From: Fimbriimonadales bacterium
Lineage (GTDB): Bacteria; Armatimonadota; Fimbriimonadia; Fimbriimonadales; ATM1
Assembly (NCBI GenBank): GCA_026129745.1
Contig: JAHCHL010000003.1
Location: 1-64,000, forward strand
Length of the DNA: 64,000 nucleotides
Reading direction: 5' to 3'
Shown here: piece by piece, positions 51,720 to 53,594 of the stretch
How the letters are laid out: the number at the start of each line of letters is the position of its first letter
How positions within the stretch are numbered: the stretch's first letter is position 1
Notes under the pieces: generated by a model
Seen by the model: the letters and a program-made list of their open reading frames with translations, nothing else
What the model was told of the DNA's origin: nothing
The model's database searches: none
Position numbers and translations under genes: made by a program

Positions 51720-52412
51720 ATGATCGCCTTGTCGCTTATAGCCGCTTTGACTGCTTCAACTAACGTGCTTGTCTTCACAAAAACCGTCGGCTTTCGGCAT
51801 GATTCGATACCGGCCGCAAGGTCCGCAATGCTAGACCTGGCAGCGCAGAAGAACTGGACGATCAAATTCACCGAAGACTCCGACGTGTTCTCTGAAGTCC
51901 AACTCAAGAACTACGACGTCATTGTGTTCTTGTTGACGACGGGAGATATCTTGAATTCAGAGCAAGAAAGAGCCTTTCGCAACTTCGTCGAATCCGGCGG
52001 AGGTTTCGTTGGTGTTCATTCAGCGAGCGATACTGAATACGATTGGGAATGGTATGGCAAGCTTGTCGGCGCATACTTCAAGAGTCACCCGGCAGTTCAA
52101 GACGCAACGGTACGCATAGAAAACGCGGAGCACCCAACAACATCGTTTCTGCCGAATCCATGGATTCGAAAGGACGAATGGTACTGTTTCAAACACAATC
52201 CAAGATCATCGGTGAATGTGCTAGCGACGGTCGATGAATCGACCTATTCAGGGGGAACGATGGGAGCGGATCATCCCATCATGTGGTGGCACGATGCGCT
52301 GGGAGGTCGCGCCTGGTACACAGCGATGGGACATACGAAGGAGTCCTATTCCGATGCGATGTTCATGCGCACGATCGCTGAAGCCGTGGAATGGGTTAAG
52401 CGAAAACGCTGA
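51720..52412 (+). CDS. ThuA-domain protein
   Basis: This 230-residue protein has a short signal peptide (to about residue 17) and a class I amidotransferase-like ThuA fold: VLVFTKTVGFRHDSIPAA, NYDVIVFLLTTGDILN, VGVHSASDTEYDWEWYGKLVG, DHPIMWWHDALGGRAWYTAMGHTKESY. ThuA takes part in trehalose use through 3-keto-trehalose with a Gfo/Idh/MocA partner. It follows apbE by 9 bases, and the closest match to its presumed pathway is the Gfo/Idh operon 6 kb away. It ends against the next convergent gene without overlap. Confidence 0.9.
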   Translation: MIALSLIAALTASTNVLVFTKTVGFRHDSIPAARSAMLDLAAQKNWTIKFTEDSDVFSEVQLKNYDVIVFLLTTGDILNSEQERAFRNFVESGGGFVGVHSASDTEYDWEWYGKLVGAYFKSHPAVQDATVRIENAEHPTTSFLPNPWIRKDEWYCFKHNPRSSVNVLATVDESTYSGGTMGADHPIMWWHDALGGRAWYTAMGHTKESYSDAMFMRTIAEAVEWVKRKR

Positions 52413-53594
52413 TCACTTCCATATTGACAATGCGACGCCCATCGGCGCAGGCCCACGATCGTTCTCGCGATTATTGAACTGCCACGCGCCGCGTCGATCG
52501 CCTATTGCGACCAAGTCGAATGAATCGAATTGTTGCGTCGCTTCGTTCCACACGCCCTGGCCATAAATCGTGCAAACATAAGCTTGCGAACCGGCTTCCA
52601 TATGCGCCCTTCCTACATATTCCATCGTCGACTTGCTGCCAGAAACTGCAAACCTTCGCATCGTTAGTGAAGCTTCCTTGACGTGCTCGGATCTCCATGT
52701 CGGCGCCTGACCGCGAACGTTGTCGACCAAGACTTCCATCGCGATTTTGCGAACGACAGCGGATGAAACGGGAACGGCGATAGTCGAGGTTGTTACAAAT
52801 GCTTTCGGATCGTCGAGTCCGATCCAATTCTGATTCCATGCCCATTTGCTGAACTCGAACCAAGGCTCGTTCATTCTGCCGACATCTTCAAATCTTGCGC
52901 CGCTTCTGTCGCTCGAACTTCTCGGTAAGTCGCGCAAATTGACTTGAAGAATCATCGGCTTGTCGCCGATCAAGTACATCGGCGGACCCGTTGTAACTTG
53001 AGGAATCGGTGAGTTTGCGTATCCTTTCTCTTGCCTTAAAGATTCCCATCGCACAAGAGCGCGCTTCATCCTTGCCAAGATGTCTGCAGCGTTGCTGCTT
53101 GCGAATTTCGCTTCCAGATACTCCGCATCGGGTCCCATAAAGTAGATCCCTTGCTTCGTGCCCGGATGATTCCATTCAGGCTTCGGAACCTGCTCGCCAA
53201 AGCGTTTGAAAAAGATGTGGTCCGGATTGTTTCTGACGCGATTGAGATTGCCAGCATCTTCGGGATAGAGCATGTAAACCTCGTCAGCCACCGTGACGAA
53301 CTCTTTCGAAAGCTTGATGATCTCAGGGTCTGACCAGACTAACTGTCGGCCTCTGACGCCGTTGTTTCACGTGCATCCCAAAGGGTGCCCGTTCATCGTC
53401 CAAAGCAAAATCGGCCGACCCAGCCGCTTGGCTTCCTCGACTGCAGGCCAAAATTTGTCCCGCCAACCGATCTCCGTGTAGGCACACTCCTGCTGGCTTG
53501 GCCGGATGAACTCGCTCCACTGGCGATAGTTGCCGGCGTCGGGTGTCAGGCTCGATGGGACCTGAAGGGCGATCAAAAGCAGTGCTGGCGTCAT
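52413..53594 (-). CDS. Thioredoxin-like exported protein with in-frame TGA (codon 76)
   Basis: From ATG 53594 the frame gives a signal peptide, then WRDKFWPAVEEAKRLGRPIL and NGHPLGCT, then a TGA (53367-53369), and continues in the same frame for 317 codons with no other stop: NNGVRGRQLVWSDPEIIKLS, VADEVYMLYPEDAG and a long beta-rich tail. The part around the TGA looks like a thioredoxin-fold active site, with C74-T75-X76. X76 sits where a second Cys is expected. Either selenocysteine is inserted, or a Cys codon (TGC/TGT) has mutated to TGA. The real stop at the end is also TGA. The family function is unknown. Confidence 0.7.
53324..53345 (-). other. Possible SECIS-like hairpin after in-frame TGA
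   Basis: On the minus-strand mRNA, GUCU-GGUC-AGAC forms a 4-bp stem with a GGUC loop, extended below an internal loop by CAG/CUG. The loop begins 31 bases after the UGA, and starts with G, which suits bacterial SECIS elements (loop usually 16-37 bases away). Short stems like this occur by chance, so this is weak evidence. Confidence 0.25.

Follow-up and report, generated by a model that had tools for sequence, protein, structure and literature searches.

The window (the whole 64,000-nucleotide stretch of DNA analysed here) carries on its minus strand a gene whose frame starts at an ATG at 53594 and ends at a TGA at 52415-52413, which acts as the stop. The sole interruption of this frame is an earlier TGA at 53369-53367, directly after Cys74-Thr75, and 317 sense codons follow it. 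The earlier note had described a TGA at 53367-53369 that interrupts an otherwise open frame with 317 stop-free codons after it, and this description held, with exact coordinates. The interrupting codon, number 76, lies in the context MNGHPLGC74-T75-U76-N-N-G-V-R-G-R, giving an active-site motif C74-T75-U76-N77-N78-G79.

Table 1. Features of the selenoprotein locus. Hairpin positions are counted from the T of the TGA as +1.
Feature	Coordinates	Strand	Extent	Basis
Gene, very likely encoding a selenoprotein	52413..53594	(-)	393 residues including Sec76	Frame and homologues
In-frame TGA, very likely selenocysteine	53367..53369	(-)	Codon 76	TGA kept in the family; Sec machinery in the genome
Signal-peptide-like short hydrophobic N-terminus (MTPALLLIALQVPSS...)	53537..53594	(-)		By eye
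N-terminal thioredoxin-fold domain	53049..53507	(-)	About residues 30-182	AlphaFold2 mean pLDDT 90.8; Foldseek
C-terminal beta-rich domain	52416..52982	(-)	Residues 205-393	AlphaFold2 pLDDT 87.9
SECIS candidate hairpin A, GGCCGAC-AGUUA-GUC(bulged U)GGUC	53332..53351	(-)	+19 to +38	
SECIS candidate hairpin B, GUCU-GGUC-AGAC	53328..53339	(-)	+31 to +42, loop +35 to +38	

A ThuA-domain gene (window 51720-52412, plus strand; Pfam E 3e-76) is convergent to the selenoprotein gene, and a gene judged ThuA-like by eye lies a few kb from the tRNA-Sec gene (L050:9453-10121, plus strand). No sign of a link between ThuA and the selenoprotein gene was seen in other genomes, and no conserved gene neighbourhood was found around family members in 14 loci. 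Without a conserved neighbour gene we therefore make no operon-based guess at function, which is inferred from the active site only.

The AlphaFold2 model, made with the family alignment (A1), places Sec76 between strand 62-67 and helix 77-86, and this topology of strand, active-site loop and helix agrees with solved thioredoxin-like structures. A Foldseek search of the PDB returned 3ira (E 9e-5), AGR2 (9i3u, E 5e-4) and also AGR3; the earlier note had called this segment thioredoxin-like. In profile alignments U76 is matched to the leading Cys of both CVNC (3f9u) and CHWC (3ira), and the model predicts that Sec76 occupies the nucleophile position of the thioredoxin fold. The C-terminal domain carries a near-invariant D-x-V-R-G motif (residues 291-295) and found no match at E<=0.001 in a fold search of the PDB, while the window protein as a whole matched no family of Pfam or NCBIfam at E<=10. 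Export to the periplasm is inferred by eye from the N-terminal sequence, without a predictor.

The listing of open reading frames gives a 292 aa ORF from an internal GTG at 53291, and on this basis the locus could be read as two separate proteins, a 75-residue peptide and a 292-residue protein. We consider this reading all but excluded, since the stretch between the TGA and that GTG holds the residues most strongly conserved in the family (NNGVRGRQLVWSDPEI), and since such a split would run through the active site of the thioredoxin domain.

Conservation of the TGA and the selenocysteine machinery

A lone in-frame TGA in an open frame gives the first impression of a nonsense mutation, or of a sequencing or assembly error, by which a Cys codon of this genome became TGA. 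A first scan of genome contigs returned relatives in Chthonomonas sp. UBA6659 (64% identical) and in a Planctomycetota bacterium (50%), both with TGA at codon 76. The same codon is found in 17/17 of the closest homologues (43-64% identical) and also in distant paralogues; relatives are present in 39 of 101 related genomes, almost always with a single TGA, which falls at codon 76 wherever an alignment was made. With a profile built from 33 members (A1), the family is detected in 106 of 291 Armatimonadota genomes (E<=0.001), about 48 of the 291 having homologues with TGA at codon 76. Counted from the match tables at E<=1e-40, 73 of the 76 Armatimonadota matches spanning codon 76 carry TGA. Family matches occur in 136 of 343 genomes of Planctomycetota, the phylum of member L002, and about 78 of the 343 have a TGA-containing match by the same count. 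Codon 76 itself was checked in 64 distinct Armatimonadota members and in more than 20 from Planctomycetota. Viral contigs searched for relatives of the family yielded none.

The motif MNGHPLGCT-U-NNG is near-invariant in homologues of both phyla. The genome of the window has two further TGA paralogues (C12:102967 and C4:10138), as well as two distant paralogues with Cys (L053 and L054). Compared with homologue L004, non-synonymous/synonymous differences are 0.23/0.69 before the TGA and 0.28/0.75 after it; protein conservation is thus as strong after the TGA as before. Mutation or error is all but excluded by these data: the same TGA stands in independently sequenced genomes of two phyla and in two more paralogues of the window's genome, and no close homologue encodes Cys at site 76. 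As a side observation, two divergent relatives, L098 (G104:C1060:4000-5700) and L104 (G158:C672:1200-3000), have a TGA right after a Cys (RC-U-G), a different Sec motif.

The window's genome encodes selA (474 bits; curated cut-off 268), selB (391 bits; cut-off 242), selD (346 bits; cut-off 125) and a tRNA-Sec with anticodon TCA (80 bits; cut-off 47), and ARAGORN independently calls tRNA-SeC(tca) on the window's own contig. The selD gene (L056) is itself Sec-containing, with a TGA in the context CAGUASK. UxxK is a known Sec site of selD (PMC13188914 Table 1), and GUASK fits it; UGA is therefore read as Sec elsewhere in this genome as well. Across Armatimonadota, where 149 of 291 genomes have selA overall, a selA match is present in 44 of the 48 genomes with TGA copies (E<=1e-20) vs 105 of the 243 others (Fisher p 1e-10, uncorrected for shared ancestry). 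We note that one of the 44, G104, has weak selA fragments only. Four of the 48 have TGA copies and no selA match; two of them, G007 and G127, are 73-78% complete. The other two, G113 and G114, which hold the TGA copies L096 and L097, are 92-97% complete, and G111 and G112 of the same genus have selA.

Reassignment of UGA to an ordinary amino acid, or its readthrough by a near-cognate tRNA, would not involve selenium and would likewise leave an open frame. We regard this explanation as very unlikely for five reasons: (I) the selenoprotein gene itself terminates on UGA, (II) the surrounding genes are complete under table 11, (III) the window's genome has the complete Sec machinery, (IV) TGA copies track selA across Armatimonadota, and (V) conserved hairpins follow the UGA.

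In sum, UGA76 is very likely a selenocysteine codon, and the gene a member of a large, apparently uncatalogued selenoprotein family, with no direct proof of selenium incorporation. The earlier note had offered selenocysteine with a mutated Cys codon or a sequencing error as the alternative; the first option is supported by the conserved TGA, the Sec machinery and comparative SECIS evidence, and the second failed with the conservation of TGA in independent genomes. It had also proposed searching for selA, selB, selD and tRNA-Sec, all of which were found, and looking for Cys or Sec at position 76 of homologues, which returned Sec (TGA) in all close homologues and Cys in a distant paralogue. Its expectation of Cys in homologues mostly failed, losses of Sec usually being to Ser or Asp.

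Candidate SECIS hairpins downstream of the UGA

Two overlapping hairpins follow the UGA of the window gene (Table 1). Hairpin A is the most stable hairpin in this gene (-7.8 kcal/mol), and its loop register matches that in other family groups. The same bulged-U hairpin is found in L100, L120, L148 and L151, with columns 24/32 G-C instead of A-U in L148 and L151. Hairpin B is the one put forward by the earlier note, as a hairpin with a GGUC loop separated from the UGA by 31 bases, and this description is exact. Its proposed role as the SECIS held only in part: the hairpin is conserved in orthologues, but the window gene probably uses hairpin A.

All four pairs of hairpin B are invariant in 17 orthologues, and the codons of this hairpin are more constant than the protein sequence requires: 17/17 use TCA for Ser88 (12% usage) and 17/17 use GTC for Val86. 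Codon-invariant columns number 6 of 121 comparable ones in the orthologues, and 4 of these 6 lie within 14 codons of the UGA. Because hairpin B does not vary, it shows no covariation in this orthologue group (A5). In the window gene it is weak (-2.4 kcal/mol vs -5.5 in orthologues) since a TTG>TTA change breaks its bottom pair. Over window 53328-53351, synonymous changes relative to the orthologues weaken hairpin B and create the stronger hairpin A; these may represent a remodelling of the SECIS, which we put forward only as a possibility. We consider it likely that the window gene uses hairpin A rather than hairpin B, and which of the two acts remains unsettled.

Covariation is seen in two paralogue groups. 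In group A3 (loop +22 to +26) both sides have changed in 5/6 pairs, 87% of cells pair vs 29-54% in slid structures, and the covariation score was reached by 0/500 shuffles. In group A4 (loop +26 to +30) the paired cells amount to 98%, and two of the pairs are compensatory. Hairpin register was one of the criteria for assigning members to A3 and A4, a choice that favours their numbers and whose bias the slid controls do not fully share. The distance of the hairpin from the UGA differs slightly among the three groups (A3, A4 and A5). In another member, L162, the hairpin GCA-GGUC-UGC (+24 to +33 from the TGA) looks the same as the apical stem-loop of the SECIS in E. coli fdhF.

The folding energy downstream of the UGA did not stand out from that of shuffles with synonymous codons (mean z -0.56; z +0.12 for the window gene), and the SECIS case therefore rests on covariation and codon invariance. 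Rfam gave no SECIS match at the locus, only a tRNA-Asn; Rfam SECIS_1 gave no match on the window's genome, and its controls were likewise silent, so that this search is uninformative. Taken at the level of the family, a bSECIS-like hairpin closely following the UGA, with G/GU in its loop, is supported comparatively, with two overlapping candidates in the window gene.

Position 76, known selenoproteins and putative function

A tree of 98 members contains 85 Sec, 6 Ser, 4 Cys, 2 Asp and 1 Pro forms at position 76, with the Ser and Asp forms scattered in several separate places among the Sec forms. Cys at the Sec site is confined to distant paralogues (L053, L054, L091-L093, L106 and L107), and all of these except L053 fall in a separate outer branch (L054, L093 and L107 in the tree; L091, L092 and L106 by alignment). 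A selA match is lacking in three genomes that carry non-Sec forms, G076 and G100 (Ser) and G048 (Asp), and present in a fourth, G068 (Asp). Mutation alone does not explain the scarcity of Cys, because UGA to UGC or UGU is a single step, like UGA to UCA. From this distribution, in the absence of activity data, we infer that Cys may be unable to do the job of Sec76. In a distant branch, the Armatimonadota copies read PCANARTLR, with Cys, where L143 (G291:C204 match) has a TGA in FCUTNARIAR; this is another Cys/Sec pair and probably a further selenoprotein subfamily.

The protein could instead be a divergent member of a named thioredoxin-like family, still a selenoprotein, such as VPGUxxT (NF041382/NF041383, OS_HP5) or Trx7/PDZ (NF041199). 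In favour of this, both are thioredoxin-like with Sec, the latter through a Thioredoxin_7-like N-terminal domain, and L053, a Cys form, weakly resembles NF041383 (E 4e-6) and NF041199 (E 1e-3) along a stretch of ~65 residues that surrounds the active site. However, the window protein itself gave no match even at E<=10, and the scores reach only 27 bits vs a cut-off of 275 and 18 vs 300. For VPGUxxT the best paralogue reaches 26.6 bits vs cut-offs of 350 / 275 bits (about a tenth or less), and the motif VPG-U-xx-T differs from the GCT-U-NN-G (CTU-NNG) of the window family. For NF041199, whose motif is CxxU (PMC13188914), the best score is 18.1 bits (L053) and no PDZ domain was found in the window family; the C-terminal half of the family has no counterpart. 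We consider this alternative unlikely, and retain the reading of a separate, apparently uncatalogued family.

Other known proteins share the fold or the arrangement of the active site. The thioredoxin-like selenoprotein Sec.1 (PF13192, CxU motif; PMC13188914 Table 1) likewise has a thioredoxin fold with a Cys two residues ahead of Sec, but the window family lacks a Thioredoxin_3 (PF13192) match and adds a large domain at its C-terminus. Thioredoxin_7 (PF13899), 3f9u, 3ira and AGR2/AGR3 have the same fold, and in 3f9u and 3ira the leading Cys of CxxC corresponds to the Sec site; these solved relatives contain no Sec, and the Pfam match to PF13899 is marginal (7 of 33 members, best E 0.011; none for the window protein). 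The 119-family list of a 2026 review (PMC13188914) holds no fitting entry; its NCBIfam-numbered entries were compared by profile and its cd/PTHR rows by motif only. Among the former, NF041383, NF041199 and NF041382 alone were matched, weakly and locally, by distant paralogues, with scores far under cut-offs. Open-access literature searched by motif (CTUNNG, HPLGCT and others) returned no paper, and searched for Armatimonadetes/Armatimonadota selenoproteins returned nothing on the window family; GenBank annotation or other papers may include it. According to its authors, the deep-Sep method may overlook selenoproteins without Cys homologues (PMC12013277), and as Cys forms at site 76 are almost absent, the family would be hidden from searches based on Cys/Sec pairs.

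In the mechanism we propose, SelA, SelB, SelD and tRNA-Sec would decode UGA76 as Sec, aided by the SECIS hairpin just downstream. The product would combine a signal-like N-terminus, a thioredoxin-fold domain with Sec at the nucleophile position and an unclassified C-terminal beta domain. The Sec76 selenolate would be the reactive group of an exported redox enzyme, acting in thiol/disulfide or peroxide chemistry; this is inferred, and substrate and activity are unknown. CxxC usually supplies a second Cys, but this position is Gly79 in the window protein, so that the resolving partner would probably be Cys74, two residues before Sec76. We note that this role is a guess, since some members have another residue in place of Cys74 (Met in L025, Thr in L032 and Ala in L029). 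An exported, selenol-based redox enzyme is the most likely function, inferred from the active site only.

A bolder reading, for which we see as much reason to doubt as to believe, is that of a Sec-obligate, probably exported thioredoxin-fold family with C-T-U-N-N-G and a new C-terminal domain; it would span two phyla, with genomes holding several paralogues each, and Cys would not replace Sec in it. If true, the loss of Sec to Ser or Asp would imply chemistry beyond that of a thiol, and the family would be among the main selenium users of these bacteria, missed since the present methods rely on Cys homologues.

The finding adds what is very likely a large multi-copy selenoprotein family to Armatimonadota and Planctomycetota, two phyla with few descriptions of their selenoproteomes. 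It also suggests that annotations are truncated or missing in many of the genomes where family members occur. What Sec can do beyond Cys becomes testable on natural Sec, Ser, Asp and Cys variants of one protein.
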